Source: Desulfovibrio cuneatus DSM 11391 (GTDB lineage Bacteria > Desulfobacterota > Desulfovibrionia > Desulfovibrionales > Desulfovibrionaceae). Taken from it: a stretch of DNA of 34,673 nucleotides. Below are positions 26,022 through 33,970 of the stretch, one piece after another; within the stretch, counting starts at the first letter, position 1; each line of letters opens with the position of its first letter. The notes beneath the pieces were generated by a model. The model did not search any database and had not been told where the DNA came from. It saw nothing but the letters and a program-made list of their open reading frames with translations. The stretch spans positions 1-34,673 of the forward strand of contig NZ_AUCY01000036.1 of assembly GCF_000430005.1 (NCBI RefSeq), given 5' to 3'. A program made the position numbers and the translations under genes.

Positions 26022-26249
26022 ATGCCCCGTGCAATCATTCTGGCAGAACGCTGCAAAGGCTGCTTGCTGTGCACCACCGTGTGCCCCGTTAAAATTTTAC
26101 GGCGCTCTACTGTGGTAAACAGCCAGGGCTATGCCATTGCACAGGTAAGCGACATGAGCCTGTGCACAGGCTGCGGTTCCTGCGCGCTTATTTGCCCGGA
26201 TATGGCCATTCGTGTATTTGCGCCAGAAAAACAGGAGAGGGGCGCATGA
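26022..26249 (+). CDS. vorD: 2-oxoacid:ferredoxin oxidoreductase, ferredoxin subunit
   Basis: A 75-aa 2x[4Fe-4S] ferredoxin-like delta subunit. Two complete cluster motifs are seen: Cys11, 14, 17, 21 and Cys48, 51, 54, 58, each in CxxCxxCxxxCP form. It carries electrons from the thiamine-dependent catalytic subunits to free ferredoxin. The start ATG at 26022 has GAGAGG upstream. Its stop overlaps the alpha subunit start (ATGA), so the two are coupled. The subunit is often listed as VorD, PorD or KorD depending on substrate, which sequence alone does not settle. Confidence 0.87.
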   Translation: MPRAIILAERCKGCLLCTTVCPVKILRRSTVVNSQGYAIAQVSDMSLCTGCGSCALICPDMAIRVFAPEKQERGA

Positions 26250-27436
26250 GCCCTATACATACCAACAAAAAAAGCACCCCCCCCCTTGCCACAGCCCTGT
26301 GCCAGGGCACCCTGGGCAACCAGCGTGCCACCCTGCCGCGCAGCGGGTTTGCCAAGGCACCCAAGCGCTTTATGAAAGGGAACGAAGCCATTGCCTTTGC
26401 CCTTATTGCAGGCGGTGTGCGCTGTTATTTTGGCTACCCCATTACCCCCCAAAACGAAATACCGGAAACACTGGCAGTGGAGCTACCCAAGGTGGGCGGC
26501 ACCTTTGTGCAGGCTGAAAGCGAACTGGCAGCCAGCAACATGCTGCTGGGTGCTGTGGCTTCCGGCATTCGGGCCTGCGTTTCTTCCGCCAGCCCCGGCA
26601 TTTCCCTTATGCAGGAAACCATCTCCTACATGGCGGGCAGCGAACTTCCCGGCTTTATCATCAACATGAACCGTGGTGGCCCCGGCCTTGGGGATATTTT
26701 TACCGGGCAGGGCGACTACTTTCAGTCTACCCGCGGTGGCGGCCATGGCGACTACCGCACCCTTACCCTGGCCCCTTCTTCCTGCCAGGAAGCCTACGAC
26801 CTTACCCTGCTGGGCCTGGACCTAGCCTACACCTACCGCAACCCGGTTATTTTTCATGGCGACGGTATTATTGGCACCATGAAAGAGCCTGTGCGCCTGT
26901 GGCAGCCCAAGGGCATAAACAATGGCACAGTGGAAGAATGGCAGCTTAATGGCTGCGCCGGAAGGGAAAAGCGCCTCATTAAATCTGTTTTCCTGGAACC
27001 GGGCACCCTGCCTGCCCACAACCGCAAGCTAATGGCCAAATATGCCAGTATGCAAAAAGAAGCCAGGGCAGAAGTTTTTGCCGTGGACGATGCAAAGCTT
27101 GTGGCAGTGGCTTTTGGTTCCGCCGGGCGTATTGTGAAAAGTGCGGTGCGTGCCTTGCGCGAGCAGGGCCTGCGCATTGGCCTTGTGCGCCCCATAACCC
27201 TGTACCCCTTCCCGGAAAAAATACTGGCAGCCCTGGCAGCCCAGGGAAAGCACTTTATTACCATTGAAAATAACACAGGCCAGATGGTGGAAGATGTGCG
27301 CCTTGCCGTGCGCGGCCTTGGCGATTCTGACTTCTTTGGTTACATGCCGGGGGAACTGCCCTGCACGGATGATTTTTTAGAGCCCTTGGCCAACGCCTAT
27401 GCCCGCTCCGGGCGTATGCGCCGGAGAAACCCATGA
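26246..27436 (+). CDS. vorB: 2-oxoacid:ferredoxin oxidoreductase alpha subunit (VorB-like)
   Basis: A 396-aa alpha subunit that pairs with beta to decarboxylate a 2-oxoacid and form an acyl-CoA with reduced ferredoxin. The conserved part begins at about residue 43 (MKGNEAIAFALIAGG), followed by CYFGYPITPQNEIPE, NMNRGGPGLGD, GDYFQSTRGGGHGDYRTL and the IGLVRPITLYPFPEK domain. The first 40 residues are an unusual Thr/Pro/Lys-rich extension; an in-frame ATG at 26372 would give the usual length. AGGAGAGG before 26246 supports the long form. The sequence style is that of subunits named VorB (2-oxoisovalerate), but 2-oxoglutarate or aryl-pyruvate use cannot be excluded. Overlaps the beta gene by ATGA. 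Confidence 0.88.
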   Translation: MSPIHTNKKSTPPLATALCQGTLGNQRATLPRSGFAKAPKRFMKGNEAIAFALIAGGVRCYFGYPITPQNEIPETLAVELPKVGGTFVQAESELAASNMLLGAVASGIRACVSSASPGISLMQETISYMAGSELPGFIINMNRGGPGLGDIFTGQGDYFQSTRGGGHGDYRTLTLAPSSCQEAYDLTLLGLDLAYTYRNPVIFHGDGIIGTMKEPVRLWQPKGINNGTVEEWQLNGCAGREKRLIKSVFLEPGTLPAHNRKLMAKYASMQKEARAEVFAVDDAKLVAVAFGSAGRIVKSAVRALREQGLRIGLVRPITLYPFPEKILAALAAQGKHFITIENNTGQMVEDVRLAVRGLGDSDFFGYMPGELPCTDDFLEPLANAYARSGRMRRRNP

Positions 27437-28260
27437 ATACTGTTCCCGGCCCCACCCACCAGGCGGGCGAACAAGGCCCTTGCCCCCAGCAAGGTGAGCG
27501 CGCGGTAAACCCGCCGCCCCACACCCACCTGCTTGCCCCCACCCACTACTGCCCCGGTTGCCACCACGGCATTGCCCAGCGCATGGTGGCAGAAGCCATT
27601 GACCACTACAACCTGCGGGAAAAAACAGTGGCCATTTCTTCCATTGGCTGCTCTGCCTTTATTTACCGTTACCTGGACATAGACATTCTTGAAGCCCCCC
27701 ACGGGCGCGGCCCTGCCGCTGCCACGGGCATGAAGCGGGCCCGCCCCGATTCATTCGTGTTTACCTACCAGGGCGACGGCGACCTTGCGGCCATTGGCCT
27801 TGCAGAAATTATGCATGCCGCCAACCGGGGGGAAAACCTTACCGTGGTCTTTGTGAACAACACAGTATATGGCATGACAGGCGGGCAAATGGCCCCCACC
27901 ACCCTGGTGGGCCAAAAAACCACCACCACCCCGGGGGGCCGCACCCTTGTGGAAGATGGTGGCCCCCTTCGCATGGCAGAAATAATTGGCGGGCTTGATG
28001 GCACGGCCTATGCCGCGCGTGTTTCCCTGCATGATGTAAAGCACATTCGCGCCGCGAAGCGCGCCTTGTTCAAAGCCTTTGAAGCCCAGCTGCAAAGCAA
28101 GGGGCTTGGGTTTGTGGAAATGCTTTCCGGCTGCCCCACCAACTGGCGCATGGACCCCGTTGCTGCTAACACCCGCATTGCCGAAGAAATGATTCCCGCA
28201 TTCCCCCTGGGTGTATACAAAGACATTCTGGCAGAGGCGACCACCACACCAGCACCCTAG
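27433..28260 (+). CDS. vorA: 2-oxoacid:ferredoxin oxidoreductase beta subunit
   Basis: A 275-aa thiamine-diphosphate-binding subunit. HYCPGCHHG (Cys40, Cys43) starts the conserved domain, SSIGCSAF holds another conserved Cys73, and GDGD (114-117) with VNN (141-143) forms the ThDP/Mg site, followed by YGMTGGQMAPTT. The first 30 residues are an extra Pro/Gly/Gln-rich stretch like that on the alpha subunit. The start overlaps the alpha stop (ATGA). Its own stop codon forms part of a 26-bp perfect palindrome, which separates it from the gamma gene. Confidence 0.9.
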   Translation: MNTVPGPTHQAGEQGPCPQQGERAVNPPPHTHLLAPTHYCPGCHHGIAQRMVAEAIDHYNLREKTVAISSIGCSAFIYRYLDIDILEAPHGRGPAAATGMKRARPDSFVFTYQGDGDLAAIGLAEIMHAANRGENLTVVFVNNTVYGMTGGQMAPTTLVGQKTTTTPGGRTLVEDGGPLRMAEIIGGLDGTAYAARVSLHDVKHIRAAKRALFKAFEAQLQSKGLGFVEMLSGCPTNWRMDPVAANTRIAEEMIPAFPLGVYKDILAEATTTPAP

Positions 28261-28284
28261 AGCATTGCAACGTTGCAATGCTCT
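28259..28284. repeat. 26-bp perfect palindrome at the beta-subunit stop
   Basis: AGAGCATTGCAAC and GTTGCAATGCTCT are exact complements with no spacer, starting inside the TAG stop codon. No T-run follows. Part of the arm (ACAATGCTCT) is repeated at about 28397-28406, just before the gamma gene. It could be an operator, a processing site or an RNA stabiliser inside the operon. Confidence 0.8.
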
Positions 28285-28432
28285 GTGGCTGCGCAGCGGA
28301 CACTCGCGAAGCGTATTGTTTTATTTTGGCATCTCCATGGGTTATAGAAGAATGCCCATATGCGTTACGGGAAAATGAACACAACTTTTCACAGTTACAA
28401 TGCTCTCAGGCATTCGCTTTAAAGGAACACAC

Positions 28433-29041
28433 ATGAGCCGCCCTGTAGCCCCCAAAGCACCCCCCATGTACCTTGACCTGATCATTGCCGGGTTTGGTGG
28501 GCAAGGAATTTTGCTTATGGGTAACCTGCTGGCCTGTGCGGCCATGGAAGCGGGCCTGCACGCCACATTCATTCCTGTATACGGCGCTGAAATGCGCGGC
28601 GGCACAGCCAACTGCACTGTGGTCCTTTCCAATGCGGAAATAGGCTCCCCCCTCATTCGCCGGCCCCACAGCCTTATTATTATGAACAGGCCCTCCTACG
28701 AAAAATTTGTGCCCCTCATTCAGCCAGGGGGCGTTTGTGTGGTGAACACCAATCTGGTGGAAACGCCCCCGCCTCCCCCAGCAGGCACACGCATTGTGGG
28801 GGTGCAGGCCAATGCCCTGGCAGAACAGGCAGGCAACGGCCGCCTGGCAAACATGGTGGCCCTGGGGGCCTACATTGCCGCCACAGGCGTGGTGCCCCTT
28901 GCCCTGGTGGCCCGCACCCTGCCACAGGTGCTGAGCGCCCACTACCAGCATTTGCTGGAAACAAACACCACTGCCCTTAACCTTGGCTATGCAGCGGGGG
29001 TGAAGGCGCTTGAAGCCACCACGGCGCAAGCACACGCTTGA
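28433..29041 (+). CDS. vorC: 2-oxoacid:ferredoxin oxidoreductase gamma subunit
   Basis: A 202-aa gamma subunit that completes the alpha/beta/gamma/delta complex. The LIIAGFGGQGILLMGNLL nucleotide-fold motif (GFGGQG at 20-25), FIPVYGAEMRGGTANCTVV and GSPLIRRP segments identify the family; a run of prolines (ETPPPPPAG) lies near residue 106. The ATG at 28433 has AAAGGAAC upstream; an alternative ATG at 28466 is nearer the conserved core. A 172-bp gap with a palindrome separates it from the beta gene, which is unusual for an otherwise overlapping operon. Confidence 0.88.
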   Translation: MSRPVAPKAPPMYLDLIIAGFGGQGILLMGNLLACAAMEAGLHATFIPVYGAEMRGGTANCTVVLSNAEIGSPLIRRPHSLIIMNRPSYEKFVPLIQPGGVCVVNTNLVETPPPPPAGTRIVGVQANALAEQAGNGRLANMVALGAYIAATGVVPLALVARTLPQVLSAHYQHLLETNTTALNLGYAAGVKALEATTAQAHA

Positions 29042-29067
29042 CACTGCAAATAATATCAGGCAAGAAT
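29038..29067 (+). promoter_or_regulatory. Candidate promoter overlapping the gamma-subunit stop
   Basis: A perfect TTGACA at 29038-29043, spanning the stop codon of the gamma gene, is 18 bases from AAGAAT (four of six matches to the -10 box). Transcription from here would start only about 10 bases before the leader ORF at 29085. Alternatively the leader is read from the oxidoreductase operon. Confidence 0.35.
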
Positions 29068-29084
29068 TATTTCAGGAGATTTTT

Positions 29085-29162
29085 ATGCACACCATATTTT
29101 TCTTTATGAGCTTCTTTTTTACCCCGTCTTACCGCAAGACCCTGGGGAGCGCTGCGCTGTAA
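29085..29162 (+). CDS. Phe-rich leader peptide (pheL-like)
   Basis: A 25-codon ORF with a CAGGAGA ribosome site 6 bases upstream. The product starts MHTIFFFMSFFFTP: six Phe in eight residues, in two triplets. The arrangement closely resembles the E. coli pheA leader peptide (FFF, one residue, FFF, Thr), which senses charged tRNA-Phe. The stop at 29160-29162 is 32 bases before a strong terminator, and a 48-aa membrane protein gene and a symporter gene follow. I infer a translation-coupled attenuator responding to phenylalanine. The peptide itself probably has no other function. A tiny membrane protein is the alternative reading, but the helix would be very short. Confidence 0.6.
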   Translation: MHTIFFFMSFFFTPSYRKTLGSAAL

Positions 29163-29167
29163 AAAGA

Positions 29168-29226
29168 AGCCGAAAGAAACCGGCTGAAAATACCAAGCCG
29201 CCGACCTAAGGGTCGGCGGCTTTTTT
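29168..29226 (+). terminator. Attenuator/terminator after the leader peptide
   Basis: The terminator is a 12-bp stem, AAGCCGCCGACC (29195-29206), loop TAAG, GGTCGGCGGCTT, running into six T's (29221-29226). Just before it are AGCCG (29168-29172) and CGGCT (29181-29185), which can pair with each other, while CGGCT can also pair with AGCCG of the terminator's left arm (29196-29200). This gives possible protector, antiterminator and terminator forms, but the first two have only 5 bp. The terminator itself is certain; the switching is inferred. Confidence 0.8.
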
Positions 29227-29274
29227 GTTAACCCATGCCGGGCATGCTGCCACGGCCAACCTAAAGGAACGCGT

Positions 29275-29421
29275 ATGGAACCAGTGGAAAGTTTTTGGGG
29301 GAAAATTGACCTGTTTGTATTTATCACCCTGGCTTCAGTAGTTGGGGCCATTGTCTATTCAGGCCTTCGCCTTGTGCAGGGGTTTGTGCAGGGTGCCACC
29401 GGCCAGACCAGTAAGAAGTAA
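29275..29421 (+). CDS. 48-aa single-helix membrane protein, symporter partner
   Basis: A small ORF missed by a length cut-off. MEPVESFWGKIDLFVFITLA begins the chain; a membrane helix spans about residues 12-36 and the tail ends TGQTSKK. AAAGGAAC lies just upstream of the ATG. It stands between the leader terminator and the symporter gene, same strand. Some sodium:solute symporters have small accessory or stabilising subunits encoded directly upstream, and I infer such a role. No family is recognised with certainty. Confidence 0.7.
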   Translation: MEPVESFWGKIDLFVFITLASVVGAIVYSGLRLVQGFVQGATGQTSKK

Positions 29422-29454: not shown

Positions 29455-29578
29455 GAAACGCTCAGTTTTTCGTTTGGCAAGGCACGAGCTTTTTTTGAGG
29501 TGGGTGCTGGACTCTTACCGTCCTGCCCCTCCTCAAAAAAAGTGAGAAACGCTGCCAAACGGAATAAATCAGCGTTTC
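29455..29578. repeat. Large hairpin family H, 124-bp copy
   Basis: GAAACGCT (29455-29462) pairs with AGCGTTTC (29571-29578), CGTTTGGC (29471-29478) with GCCAAACG (29554-29561), and CTTTTTTTGAGG (29489-29500) exactly with CCTCAAAAAAAG (29531-29542). The whole unit can fold as one long interrupted hairpin. It sits between the small membrane protein gene and the symporter gene. Confidence 0.9.
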
Positions 29579-29609: not shown

Positions 29610-31064
29610 ATGCCTTCACTTTCTATGCTAGCCTTATGGGGCGGTTATATTGCTTTCATGATCTACCTTACCCGCAAAGGCCGTGGGCACGACGCCGTAC
29701 TTTCCGGCCCGGTGAAATTTTCCGTGCAGGCCCTTGCTTATGTGGCCACCTACATTTCTTCCGTAGCCCTGGTGGGCTTTGGCGGCCTTTCCCATAAATA
29801 CGGCATGCAGGTACTGGCAGTGGCAGCAGGCGTGGCCTGGCTGGGTACCTGGGCTGTGTATGCCAAGCTGGCCTGGCCCACCCGCCAGTGGCAGCAAAAA
29901 CTTGGGGTGCGCACCCCCGCCCAACTGCTGGCCTATGGGCACAATGCACCGGGCCTGCGCCGCTTCTTTGGGGCCATTTTTGCCTTGCTCCTGGCGGTGT
30001 ACGCTTCCGCCGTTATCAAAGGCGCTGCCATTATGATGGTAGACATTATTCCCGTGGAACTGAACACCCTGGTGTGGATTGTGGCCGTGCTGGTTGGCCT
30101 TACGGTGTACATTGGGGGGATGCGCGGCGTGCTGTACACGGAAGCCATGCAAGGCGCGGTAATGCTGGTAGGCATTGTTATGCTCACCGCTGCCGTGCTT
30201 GCCAAGGTGGGTGGCCCGGTTGAGGGAATGCGGGCCCTTGCTGCACTGCCGCCAGATTCCTTCGCCAACCAAGGGTTTCTTTCCCTTTCTTCTGGCGACC
30301 AGGGCATGTTTATTATCTCCCTGGTGCTGGTAACGTCCATTTCTGTGTGGTCGCAGCCACAAATGATACAGCGCCACTTTGCCCTGGCAGACAAAAACGC
30401 TGCCATGCGTTCTGCCCCCCTGGCCATGCTGGTGGCCAGCATTTTGCTGGGCGGCGTGTTCTTTTCTTCTGCCCTTTCCCGTGTGTTCATTCCCACCATT
30501 GAATCGGCAGACAAGCTGGTGCCCCACCTTGTGGCCATGCTGTTGCCGGAAGTGGGCCGCCAGCTCTTTATTCTGGCCATTGTTTCTGCTTCCCTTTCCA
30601 CCGCCACAGCCCTGTACCACATTGCTGTGGCGGCCATGGTGGAAGATATTCCCGGCAAGCAAACCGGGCGCGGTACATGGCTTATGGGCATTATTGCCTG
30701 CGTGGTTATTGCCGGGGGCAGCGCTGGGCTGAAGGGGGCACTTATATCCATGGTGCACGTGACAAGCTGGACGCTGATAGCCGCCAGTTCGTTTGTGCCG
30801 TACCTTATGCTGGTGGTGTGGGGGAAGCAGTCTTCCCGTGGGGCCTGGTGCAGCGCCATTGGGGGGAGTATTTGCTGCATGGCGTGGTACTTGTTGGCGT
30901 ATCCACAAACGGCGCTGGTGGTGCCGGTTTTAGGTAGCCTTGGGGCGAAGATACCACCGTTTGTGGTGGGGGTTGGGGCTTCGGCACTGTGCTGGGGTGC
31001 GCAGGCGGTGCTCATGCCGGAAAGGGTGAAGGAAGAAGAAGAGGTGACGGAAGGGGCGGTGTAA
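29610..31064 (+). CDS. Sodium:solute symporter (SSS family)
   Basis: A 484-aa polytopic inner-membrane protein with about 12-13 hydrophobic helices, typical in length for the SSS family (PutP, PanF and relatives), which couple Na+ entry to uptake of amino acids, vitamins or organic acids. Seen features: VATYISSVALVGFGGL in the first helices, KGAAIMMVDIIPVE, VGLTVYIGGMRGVLYTE as in family members, and SASLSTATALYH, a Ser/Thr-rich helix like the one holding the Na+ site. The ATG at 29610 has GAGGGGG upstream. Substrate is not readable from sequence; the Phe-rich leader upstream points to phenylalanine or another aromatic compound. Followed by a terminator-like hairpin. Confidence 0.9.
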   Translation: MPSLSMLALWGGYIAFMIYLTRKGRGHDAVLSGPVKFSVQALAYVATYISSVALVGFGGLSHKYGMQVLAVAAGVAWLGTWAVYAKLAWPTRQWQQKLGVRTPAQLLAYGHNAPGLRRFFGAIFALLLAVYASAVIKGAAIMMVDIIPVELNTLVWIVAVLVGLTVYIGGMRGVLYTEAMQGAVMLVGIVMLTAAVLAKVGGPVEGMRALAALPPDSFANQGFLSLSSGDQGMFIISLVLVTSISVWSQPQMIQRHFALADKNAAMRSAPLAMLVASILLGGVFFSSALSRVFIPTIESADKLVPHLVAMLLPEVGRQLFILAIVSASLSTATALYHIAVAAMVEDIPGKQTGRGTWLMGIIACVVIAGGSAGLKGALISMVHVTSWTLIAASSFVPYLMLVVWGKQSSRGAWCSAIGGSICCMAWYLLAYPQTALVVPVLGSLGAKIPPFVVGVGASALCWGAQAVLMPERVKEEEEVTEGAV

Positions 31065-31148: not shown

Positions 31149-31580
31149 GGATTGCGGCGCAAGCGCCACACCATTCCTCTGTTCTTTTTTTGTTTGCCGC
31201 TCCGCTTGGGTGGAAACATGGAGTTTCGTGCGGCGTGTCGCCGCGTACGCTTGTGGTTTTTTGTTTTGTTTGCCGCTCCGCTTAGGTGGAAACACGAAGT
31301 TTTTTCGTTTGGCAAGGCATTCGGCGCAAGCACCGTCATCCACGCGCAGGCGGGGATCCAGTATTTTCAATGTGATAGCGCGTAGTTTTGTGCGGCGTGC
31401 CGCCGCGCCAGCCTAAGCACCGTCATCCCTGCAAAGGCAGGGATCCAGTATTTTTTGGGTGATAGTATTTTCTTGCGGCGCAAGCGCCACACCATTCCTC
31501 TGTTCTTTTTTTGTTTCCCGCTCCGCTAGGGTCAGGGGGCCCTTGTGCGGCCCCCTAACAACCCCACACCCACGGGGTTG
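31149..31580 (+). repeat. Dense mosaic of hairpin repeat modules
   Basis: In order: the GCGCAAGCGC module with its CATTCCTCTGTTC tail (31149-31206) and again at 31474-31530; family G, CGCTTGTGGTTTTTTG plus GTTTGCCGCTCCGCTT (31229-31291); a left-arm fragment of family H, TTTTTTCGTTTGGCAAGGCA (about 31301-31320); two CGTCATCC...GGGGATCCAG or GCAGGGATCCAG hairpins (about 31335-31361 and 31421-31450); and a GGGGGCCC...GGCCCCC hairpin (about 31535-31554). Modules are joined in different combinations, each attached to the same CGCTCCGCT core. Confidence 0.85.
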
Positions 31581-32221
31581 CACCCCGTGTCCCCGCTAAG
31601 CTTGTGGCCCGCGCTCAGGTAGATTTGTTTCGCTCACTCGAAGACTCGTACGCTGCACAAATATATTCGCGCGGAGAGTGCACCGTGCAGAACATGAGAG
31701 AGGGGGCGCTTATCGGTTACTTGCTGGGAAAAAGACTGTGCCACAGAAGGTAATTTCTGCGAAGTCGGAGAGTGGAGGCGAAACGATTGCACTCCGAGTG
31801 AGTAGGCGGGCGCAGCAAAGCGCACGTGGGCTAGGGGTAACTCGAAGAATTATCTGTACGGTGCGGCGAAGACGCGACCTTCTCCTCTCGGGCTTCGTGG
31901 AGATGCACAGGCAGCAAAGCTGCCCGCGCCCTCTGCCCTCGCTCCACGGCTCGCTACGCTTGCGACTGCCGTCGGCTTTAGTGAAGATTCACGCCACCAT
32001 CATTAGGAAAGATAGCGAGTAGTTTTGTACGGTACACGCCTCCTCTCAGCTATTCCACGCACCCTCTCTCAGCTATTCCACCCGCCCTTCTCCCGCGTGT
32101 CATAAGCATACAACCAAGCCTTACCACAATTACCTCCTTCTGCTATGGGGAAAACAACTGCCGTGTATTCGTTGTGAATCATACGGCACAATTGTATTCC
32201 ATTTATGGCAGGAGGCAGTAT
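31581..32221. other. Gene-free region before the Rhs gene
   Basis: About 640 bases with no supported gene. It contains a CGGGGT/ACCCCG hairpin (about 31578-31591), a stretch of unclear origin (31600-31880), a relative of the 184-bp repeat (31885-31986) and a short 23-bp-spaced direct repeat of CTCTCAGCTATTCCAC at 32043 and 32066. Translation of 31600-32170 gives no Rhs-like sequence, so this is not an obvious remnant of a longer Rhs N-terminus. The Rhs promoter is presumably in the A+T-richer end near 32100-32210. Confidence 0.5.
31885..31986 (+). repeat. Diverged relative of the 184-bp repeat
   Basis: CTCGGGCTTCGTGGAGATG, then a GGCAGC-aaa-GCTGCC hairpin in place of the CAGCCAGC one, then CCCTCGCTCCACGGCTCGC and CTGCCGTCGGCTTTAG as in the array at 5018. 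Framework conserved, hairpin stem different. Confidence 0.8.
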
Positions 32222-33970
32222 ATGCGCCCCATGAGCACCGAGGATTTTTTACGAGAAATCGTGTTTCGCAACAGCGGAAATTCCAGCAGTTCCGGCACCC
32301 TTCTTTCCGGGGCATCCGGCCCCATGCCCCCGCAAGCGGCAGGCTGGCAAGGCACTGCCCCGCGCCAGTCGTTACTTGGTTCACCGCAGGCAGGTTCTGG
32401 TGCCAGTGTCTTCCGCATGCGTTGCACGACAAACCACCTTGGCAAGATAGAAGCCAAGGAAGAACATACCCCCAACGAAAGCACCCGCTGGGAGTATACC
32501 TATGACGTGGCAGGGCACCTTGCCACGGTACGTTGCAACGGCGCGGTAACGGAAGAATACACATACAACACCCAAGGCCAGCGCATTGCAGACCGCGTGC
32601 CCTCTGCCATGCGCCACCGGGGCGGGCAGCGCAGATTCACCTACAATGACGAGGGGCAACTGGTGGAAGTAAACGCCACCCACTTTTACTACACCGCCTC
32701 CGACACTCTGCGCGGAAGGCAGGAAAACGGCAAAAATACCTATTTCAGCTACGGCGACGACACTCGGCTGGACAGCGTCACCCTGCCTTCCGGGTTTGAA
32801 GTGCGCTATGAATATGGGCAAAGCCTGCTGCCGGAGCGCATTCACGTGTCGGGGCGGTTGGTGGGGGAATACCGCTGGCAAACTCCGCTACAACTACAAG
32901 AGTATTACGATGTGATGCAGGACACTCGCTACACATTCCAGTACAAGGGGCAACGTGTCCCCATGGGAGTATACATCAGCGGCACCGGGGCGGCCTTCAT
33001 TAAGGAGCGCTTTCAACGCGGCAATCTGGATCAGTATTCCCCCATGTTCCAAGCACAAGGGGCTACGGACAGCCTTTTTCTGCACATCGGGGCCGACCAG
33101 GTGGGCAGCATCCGCACCCTGAGCACAGAAGACGGACGCATGGTGAAGGAAATCGAGTACGACAGCTTTGGCAATGTGCTACGCGATTCCTTCCCGGAAT
33201 TGTCGTTCCCCCTTGGCTTTGCGGGCGGGCTAGTGGATGAACATACAGGCTTCGTTCGCTTCGGATACCGCGACTACGACCCGCAAACGGGACGCTTCAC
33301 CGCCCAAGACCCTGCCCGCGACCTGCGCGGCGATGCGGATTTGTACGACTACTGCGTGGATGACCCTGTCAGTTGTGTTGACCCGCAGGGGTTGGCAACA
33401 CGGCAGTGGAACGAGAGCTTGCATCCCCGGGATGATGTGGGCAAGTTTACCTTTAAGGATGGGGCGGATAACTTGCCGAGGGAAATGAGAAAATATGCGC
33501 GTAAAAACTTCACAAGTACTCCCTATTCCTATAATATTGGTGAAGCGTTACAGCGTGCAACAAAGGGGCAGATTGTTGATAAAATGCCTGTCGACGATAA
33601 AGTTGCTCGCTTTTATTTGCTGGCCGACATGCTCAAAGAGGCTGCTGATCATTTGAATATTGACCCTGATTACTTGATGGCACTTGCTTCTCACGAAAGT
33701 AGTTGGCTTAATGACCATAATTTTGGGCTAAACAATCTTTTTGGTCTGACCAACGCCGGTAAGAATAATCTGTCATTCTCTTCTCTCGGAAAAAGCGTAG
33801 AGTATTGGGTAAAGAACTATGCAGACTGGGTGAGTGGCAGCAAAAGCATGGAAGAGTTCATTCATGGTTTACGCTACAATGGCCCCAACGCCTATAATTC
33901 TAAAGATCCGAAATACGACGAGAAACTTCGTAAACAATATAAGACTATTGTAAAAAGGAAACTAAAATGA
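32222..33970 (+). CDS. Short Rhs/YD-repeat toxin with glucosaminidase-like tip
   Basis: A 582-aa Rhs protein. Residues 1-70 are a Ser/Gly/Pro-rich lead-in with no signal peptide, PAAR or membrane segment. YD-type repeats follow (for example WEYTYDVAGHL, EEYTYNTQGQRI, FTYNDEGQLV), then the Rhs core VGSIRTL...GFAGGLVDEHTGFVRFGYRDYDPQTGRFTAQDP and the DYCVDDPVSCVDPQGLA boundary (DPQGL at 387-391). The variable tip (393-582) has ASHESSWL with Glu492 as likely catalytic acid, NNLFGLTNAGKNNLSF and YWVKNYADWV, resembling glucosaminidase/lysozyme-like domains that cut peptidoglycan. The tip DNA is visibly A+T-richer than the core. The ATG at 32222 has a perfect AGGAGG; the GTG at 32174 does not. The stop overlaps the next gene (ATGA). 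I infer an antibacterial polymorphic toxin. Confidence 0.85.
   Translation: MRPMSTEDFLREIVFRNSGNSSSSGTLLSGASGPMPPQAAGWQGTAPRQSLLGSPQAGSGASVFRMRCTTNHLGKIEAKEEHTPNESTRWEYTYDVAGHLATVRCNGAVTEEYTYNTQGQRIADRVPSAMRHRGGQRRFTYNDEGQLVEVNATHFYYTASDTLRGRQENGKNTYFSYGDDTRLDSVTLPSGFEVRYEYGQSLLPERIHVSGRLVGEYRWQTPLQLQEYYDVMQDTRYTFQYKGQRVPMGVYISGTGAAFIKERFQRGNLDQYSPMFQAQGATDSLFLHIGADQVGSIRTLSTEDGRMVKEIEYDSFGNVLRDSFPELSFPLGFAGGLVDEHTGFVRFGYRDYDPQTGRFTAQDPARDLRGDADLYDYCVDDPVSCVDPQGLATRQWNESLHPRDDVGKFTFKDGADNLPREMRKYARKNFTSTPYSYNIGEALQRATKGQIVDKMPVDDKVARFYLLADMLKEAADHLNIDPDYLMALASHESSWLNDHNFGLNNLFGLTNAGKNNLSFSSLGKSVEYWVKNYADWVSGSKSMEEFIHGLRYNGPNAYNSKDPKYDEKLRKQYKTIVKRKLK

Follow-up and report, generated by a model that had tools for sequence, protein, structure and literature searches.

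A putative phenylalanine-codon attenuator in front of an SSS-family symporter gene in Desulfovibrio cuneatus, with related aromatic leaders in its family

In this study, we analysed a DNA stretch of 34,673 nucleotides from Desulfovibrio cuneatus DSM 11391 (the window in what follows; contig C31, the whole genome measuring 3.36 Mb) and propose that it contains a ribosome-mediated attenuator with phenylalanine as the sensed amino acid, acting on the genes for a small membrane protein and an SSS-family symporter; judged from the sequence, we give this reading a probability of about 0.8. The proposal is based on the parts of the element, on its recurrence among relatives with exchange of Phe and Tyr, on the terminator that follows each of the 20 leaders found in front of close symporter homologues, and on covariation in the leaders of ADH-synthase genes and of a second SSS group. 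Textbook leader-peptide attenuators control amino acid synthesis. The mechanism suggested here would be of a known kind, and what appears to be new are the SSS symporter targets and the reading of tyrosine codons in relatives. Codes for families, genera, genomes, contigs and loci (f1, g1, g40 etc.) are labels internal to this analysis. The features of the locus are the following:

26162-29041: three genes for a 2-oxoacid:ferredoxin oxidoreductase (VorB-like and partners), directly 5' of the leader region
29038-29067, + strand: promoter-like site TTGACA-N18-AAGAAT, from a consensus scan only, overlapping the end of the last oxidoreductase gene
29074-29078, + strand: leader ribosome-binding site AGGAG, six bases 5' of the ATG, read from the sequence
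29085-29162, + strand: leader reading frame of 25 residues, MHTIFFFMSFFFTPSYRKTLGSAAL, with ATG at 29085 and stop codon TAA at 29160-29162
29097-29120, + strand: Phe codons TTT TTC TTT ATG AGC TTC TTT TTT, the proposed sensing codons and proposed segment 1
29122-29147, + strand: hairpin directly 3' of the Phe codons, CCCCGUCUU / AAGAC..GGGG, counterpart of CCCGG..CCGGG in relatives
29195-29228, + strand: intrinsic terminator, stem 29195-29222 with 12 unbroken base pairs, loop of 4, T-run, -24.0 kcal/mol
29275-29421, + strand: reading frame for a small membrane protein of 48 residues with one hydrophobic stretch, a candidate symporter accessory protein
29610-31064, + strand: SSS-family symporter gene (PF00474), frame open from TTG 29586, ATG 29610 preferred

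The start codon of the leader and its ribosome site had been proposed in an earlier note made from the letters of this DNA, and both were recovered; the same note let the peptide end at 'TP', but the reading frame runs on to the TAA. Six Phe codons stand among codons 5-12 in two runs (29097-29105 and 29112-29120), both without Tyr, and a single Tyr codon follows further on. The Phe-codon segment is able to pair with about 29158-29184, as seen both in folds and in the alignment to the Rfam Phe_leader model. The hairpin behind the Phe codons has three consensus pairs only in the alignment of relatives; a short hairpin 3' of the aromatic codons and a terminator recur in the window's group. The 12-bp terminator with a T-run was found as the earlier note had described it, and three pairs of its stem show changes on both sides among 10 relatives. 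Promoter-like sites occurred twice in a stretch of 801 bases compared with a shuffle mean of 0.8, which is weak taken alone; TTGACA (once TTGACG) also stands 5' of the nine leaders that were inspected by eye.

The small membrane protein and the SSS symporter that had been read downstream of the leader are both present. The symporter matches PF00474 with E 1.2e-27 and 97.3 bits, above the gathering score of 22.8 bits, while no NCBIfam model reached its cut-off and the comparison with solved chains gave one weak match, to the sodium/iodide cotransporter (E 7e-4). Its start is probably ATG 29610, which is preceded by GAGGGGG. The 48-residue protein has no Pfam or NCBIfam match at E 0.001; reading frames of 39-49 residues lie directly 5' of the symporter in several relatives, and this single-span protein is possibly a symporter accessory protein. 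Two further observations concern other parts of the window. A 16-base core, TTTCGTTTGGCAAGGC, is present at 29466-29484 and 31301-31319, the former copy lying between the 48-residue reading frame and the symporter, close to nested inverted repeats; with up to two mismatches it has 295 copies in the genome against 5 for a reversed-pattern control, and it is therefore an interspersed repeat of about 300 copies. An RHS-core protein with a C-terminal glucosaminidase-like domain is encoded at 32174-33970.

According to the proposed model, a shortage of charged tRNA-Phe would make the ribosome stall on the Phe codons. The leader segment further downstream would then be available for pairing with the terminator's 5' arm, and RNA polymerase would continue into the transporter genes. 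With Phe plentiful, or with the leader untranslated, the terminator would form, and the net effect would be that a shortage of Phe-tRNA raises symporter expression. We infer translation of the leader, stalling and the switch in the window itself, and also the substrate: given a Phe-codon attenuator in front of it, the symporter would most likely import Phe itself or a precursor of it.

When both strands of the window were scanned for reading frames of 8-50 residues with at least four F, Y or W in seven, followed within 120 nucleotides by a hairpin of -12 kcal/mol or lower and a T-run, the leader at 29085-29162 was the single match in 34.7 kb. The stretch 29060-29235 folds with a z-score of -4.3, and 0 of 200 shuffles were equally stable. 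A homologue of the symporter at E 1e-60 or better is found in 54 of the 288 genomes of the family, that of D. cuneatus included, mostly with 52-62% identity. The 53 loci with at least 250 bases of upstream sequence were compared (G226 has no upstream sequence, and fragments in G230 and G002 were left out). Requiring an ATG, 10-45 residues, at least three F or Y in seven and, within 120 nucleotides, a hairpin of -14 kcal/mol or lower with a T-run, we found an aromatic leader with a terminator in 20 of the 53 upstream regions, as against two matches in 587,896 control bases, the control being the remainder of the same loci on both strands; the other 33 loci gave no leader by the same criteria. 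The terminators behind the 20 leaders range from -15 to -26 kcal/mol. The aromatic runs are kept though their codons alternate between TAT and TAC and between TTT and TTC.

These figures bear on the possibility that the leader is a Phe-rich reading frame present by chance and sensing nothing, which happens to precede the terminator of the upstream operon, the symporter having a promoter of its own. T-rich DNA yields Phe codons, the antiterminator of the window is weak, the leader is absent in those 33 close homologues, and the terminator lies about 150 bases past the upstream oxidoreductase stop codon, so that it could serve that gene. However, a chance reading frame in T-rich DNA is contradicted by the single match in the window and by the frequency of leaders in front of homologues compared with the control. 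Moreover, leader, terminator and symporter are retained in relatives whose upstream sequences differ, and T-richness does not explain Tyr in place of Phe. We consider a chance origin very improbable.

It had been suggested that the Phe codons and the terminator should be conserved in relatives if the leader senses Phe. A terminator follows each of the 20 leaders found, but the Phe codons are not conserved: most of the relatives' leaders carry Tyr codons, Phe and Tyr exchange with one another, and conservation of Phe as such was rejected. By the test that the earlier note had set itself, the Phe-specific reading appears to fail across relatives, whereas a reading in terms of aromatic codons seems strengthened. 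The genome of D. cuneatus itself encodes the symporter once more at C2:17065-18453; this copy is 54% identical to that of the window and has the leader MNTSFVFANSNYYRSFNERGQAVECAVF and its own terminator, with no small reading frame in front. As the leader in the window has Phe and those of the C2 copy and of most relatives have Tyr, the property that is kept is the aromatic one, and the amino acid read may follow the symporter copy.

The leaders of the close homologues fall into two types, one seen at 10 loci in 9 genomes (e.g. MNKAFFFSFTYYYYPDALPRLGVMPCA, MYQAFAYTYYYYPDHIAHPGLLRRA, MQKLYTQYAYYPDCPAAPGIFALGLS and the window's own) and the other at 10 loci of genus g40 (e.g. MKLTTAICYFRYYFTGVSN, MNAATTFRFFRYYVARVNH). 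Covariance model R1, made for type 1, matches 8 of the 10 type 2 leaders with E 3e-5 to 9e-4, and R2, made for type 2, matches 4 of the 10 type 1 leaders, among them the window with E 0.0014; these E-values refer to a single genome, and similar scores are reached by the leaders of other genes and by some chance sites. In view of these partial cross-matches, the two types may form one family. Matches of the models in genus g8 (G086, G021, G280, G281) and at G000:C10 looked like chance when read and were set aside.

A second group of SSS proteins, 25-30% identical to the symporter of the window, has leaders at 8 of 16 loci, the leader alone being scored. A homologue of one member of this group, from genus g5, is found at E 1e-120 or better in 67 of the 288 genomes, and among the 30 best of these loci, all from genus g5, 28 have a Phe-dominated leader (e.g. 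MNTYPNRFSFFFFFSFRFFRSACGLGVYV), 27 with a scored terminator; at one of the remaining two loci the landmark that was used is absent. In three genomes of genus g21, SSS symporters stand in tandem, one with a Phe leader (MNKLTTIIFFAFFGFRGIQACGSVECVRT and variants) and one with a Tyr leader (MNTINRHMNSYFYAYYGYRVSKTCGSVECA and variants) (L205, L206 and G069:C13, the last with L018 and L152), while a fourth tandem pair (G034) showed no aromatic leaders on inspection. Another SSS protein, at L123 (G266:C278:919-1081), is preceded by the Tyr-rich leader MNSIFAMNAYYYLYYHSGSCGVSCER; its best NCBIfam match is PutP, below the cut-off.

It might be suggested that these leaders sense aromatic amino acids in general, Phe as well as Tyr, and that the differences in codons are drift. 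This is compatible with the main reading and differs from it in specificity. Leaders that mix F and Y exist, such as MNKAFFFSFTYYYYPD... and MNTSFFYSFSFYYYW..., and many of the ADH-synthase leaders described below mix F, Y and W codons. However, the tandem symporters of the three genomes pair one Phe-type with one Tyr-rich leader, the g5 loci have leaders dominated by Phe, and the runs of the window leader contain no Tyr, and a general sensor therefore seems rather unlikely to us.

Aromatic leaders also precede biosynthesis genes. Weak matches of the covariance models led to ADH synthase (2-amino-3,7-dideoxy-D-threo-hept-6-ulosonate synthase; NF005556 and TIGR01949 above cut-off), which catalyses the first step of the aromatic pathway and is present in 78 of 87 relatives. 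At the 30 best-scoring loci (L165-L194) an aromatic leader was found in every case, with a scored terminator in 29, and 10 further loci picked by hand, that of D. cuneatus included, all have one too, three of them starting with GTG or TTG; the resulting 40 of 40 refers to the loci read, further copies in the same genomes lying outside the count. In D. cuneatus the leader is MHNSLSPRSWRFTTAVESVFFYGFFYYGFSQSCGGVSAV (L197, C4, 5' of 120415). The trpE gene of the same genome has a Trp-type leader, ...FGRWWQGA..., and a terminator (L198, C4), and a Trp-codon leader with a terminator precedes trpE in four g40 genomes (L124, L126, L127, L132); the Rfam Trp_leader model gave no match at its gathering score at the two trpE loci searched, L198 and L124. 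Counting the window, the C2 copy, ADH synthase and trpE, the genome has at least four aromatic leaders, the putative switch in the window being one. At the level of sequence comparison, the presence of the same device in front of aromatic biosynthesis genes and of two symporter groups that are only distantly related supports a link of the transporters to aromatic amino acids.

The substrate of the symporter might nevertheless be an arylacetate (phenylacetate or 4-hydroxyphenylacetate) instead of an amino acid; the attenuator would then be real, and the cell would make Phe or Tyr from the arylacetate through CoA ligation and reductive carboxylation. This alternative is compatible with the main reading except for the substrate. 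The SSS family includes the known phenylacetate permeases, and 2-oxoacid:ferredoxin oxidoreductase genes lie just 5' of the leader in the window. Phe-rich leaders, e.g. MKNFLVFRSFFFFMCPQ, also precede a phenylacetate-CoA ligase-like gene of genus g5 (TIGR02155, with 630 bits slightly under the cut-off of 646): of 30 loci fetched (L218-L247), five could not be placed, and 20 of the other 25 have such a leader, the leader alone being scored. This keeps the alternative alive. However, the oxidoreductase alpha subunit has its best match in the 3-methyl-2-oxobutanoate type, and when the upstream sequences of relatives were read, with no dedicated search, oxidoreductase genes were not noticed in them. 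Import of an arylacetate therefore appears unlikely. The odds that we give to the different readings do not sum to one because the alternatives on substrate and on specificity are compatible with the attenuator itself.

The evidence for an antiterminator differs between the groups. In the window the candidate antiterminator is no better than in shuffled sequences (86 of 200 shuffles as good in one test, 83 of 300 in another), while in individual members of its group the end of the leader can engage the terminator arm, as in the C2 copy, with 3 of 300 shuffles equal. For seven of the 20 leaders, at most 10 of 200 shuffles did as well, and five of these seven belong to genus g40. Cognate pairing between leader and terminator is marginal in type 1 (reached by 1364 of 20,000 permutations) and unsupported in type 2 (19,598 of 20,000). 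A model of ribosome positions in the window gave the degree to which the terminator arm is engaged while its 3' half has yet to be made. The value was 0.41 without a ribosome and 0.53-0.62 with the leading edge placed as for a stall on the Phe codons. For an edge at 29157-29163 it was 0.09-0.13, for one at 29169-29181 (about a ribosome on the stop codon) 0.35-0.42, and at 29187 it was 0. A ribosome on the stop codon is thus about equal to no ribosome, and these values suggest that the stall helps a little and that its contrast with a ribosome on the stop codon is small; at equilibrium the terminator stands at 0.97-0.98 for every ribosome position. We would say that this model proves nothing about the window.

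In the leaders of ADH synthase and of the second SSS group, an 8-base segment, typically GCCTGCGG or GCCTGTGG, is complementary to the 5' arm of the terminator, CCGCAGGC, and forms the Ala-Cys-Gly codons of a common peptide ending. Both segments are present in 43 of 51 leaders (seven of the others have no leader segment and one no terminator of the searched form), where 331 of 344 positions form standard pairs, partly by construction as the searched form fixes several positions; the weight is carried by the free positions and by a permutation in which shuffled partners reached this value in 0 of 10,000 cases, a figure that is generous because the sequences are related. At the free fourth base the combinations of leader and terminator are T-A 29, C-G 8, T-G 3, A-G 2 and C-A 1, so that a G in the terminator is met by a C in the leader in 8 of 13 cases, and otherwise in 1 of 30. 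At the first base, three leaders have A-T in place of G-C, one has G-T, and nine are mismatched (T-C 4, A-C 3, C-C 2). The covariation at the fourth and first bases is what an antiterminator predicts for these two groups.

Taken more widely, we tentatively suggest, with the odds slightly against it, that in the Desulfovibrionaceae aromatic uptake as well as aromatic synthesis is under leader-peptide attenuators, Tyr-codon ones included, and that the codons of a leader report the substrate of the adjacent transporter. The same tentative reading, held at the same odds, includes the sorting of paralogous SSS proteins into Phe importers with Phe leaders and Tyr importers with Tyr leaders, for which we rely on the C31 and C2 copies of D. 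cuneatus and on the tandem pairs of g21. If this is true, leader codons would be a readable label of transporter specificity, and the SSS family would gain a branch for aromatic amino acids. The findings also supply a testable substrate for two SSS groups; in D. vulgaris, as far as the available part of that study goes, no gene was found to be specifically important for the use of phenylalanine (PMC10102598). The attenuation device would recur in a distant group of bacteria, read Phe and Tyr and precede transporters. In the accessible portion of a survey that included 10 Desulfovibrionales genomes, leader motifs are given for His, Leu, Thr and Trp only, most targets of attenuators are described as biosynthetic enzymes, and a gamma-proteobacterial origin of attenuators is suggested (PMC3766115). 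Within open-licence PubMed Central, outside of which most subscription journals lie, we found no report of a Tyr-codon leader attenuator, nor of any leader attenuator in front of an SSS symporter.

Several known systems can be compared with the element in the window. In the parts of the text available, PMC1262725 names attenuators for phenylalanine and T-boxes for the RNA-level control of tyrosine genes. T-boxes sense uncharged tRNA. The control of tyrosine genes at the RNA level is a point of likeness, but in the proposed model sensing in the window would be by translated codons, and a T-box identity was rejected, as the Rfam T-box model gave no match in the window or in 12 loci of relatives. 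Within the same bacterial group, Table 7 of PMC1173090, in the part consulted, lists for D. vulgaris a putative attenuator ahead of aroA'-aroB'-...-tyrA-[trp], an entry taken from a prediction website. The aroA' gene is the counterpart of the ADH synthase whose leaders are found here; however, the target is biosynthesis, and the word 'leader' is absent from the text of that paper. An older reconstruction of regulation in this group does not contain the terms aromatic, phenylalanine, tyrosine, leader peptide or T-box (PMC545781). The classical trpL is matched by the Trp-codon leaders with terminators in front of trpE in D. cuneatus and the four g40 genomes, while the leader in the window would read another amino acid.

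A further likeness is to the Phe_leader element of enterobacterial pheA/pheL and pheST (RF01859). The window resembles it in having a short Phe-rich leader, a hairpin and a terminator, and in that the Phe-codon segment can pair with one that includes the stop codon and the bases behind it, a pairing that the enterobacterial element also has; it aligns to the model over its full length (positions 1-125) with 37 bits, a score that comes partly from this pairing. The earlier note had drawn a parallel with the E. coli pheA leader; by the curated score, 37 bits being under the gathering score of 55, the window is not a member of this family. The same stretch is also matched by other, unrelated families with lower scores, Phe_leader gave no match at E 1 in 13 loci of relatives, and no Rfam family reached its gathering score in the whole window; a named Rfam family at that score was rejected for the window and for the relatives' loci searched. 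The E. coli pheA leader peptide is Phe-rich, and compared with the pheL peptide the leader in the window has 11 further residues past FFFTP. Finally, enterobacterial Phe leaders control biosynthesis or a tRNA synthetase, whereas the leader in the window precedes a symporter.
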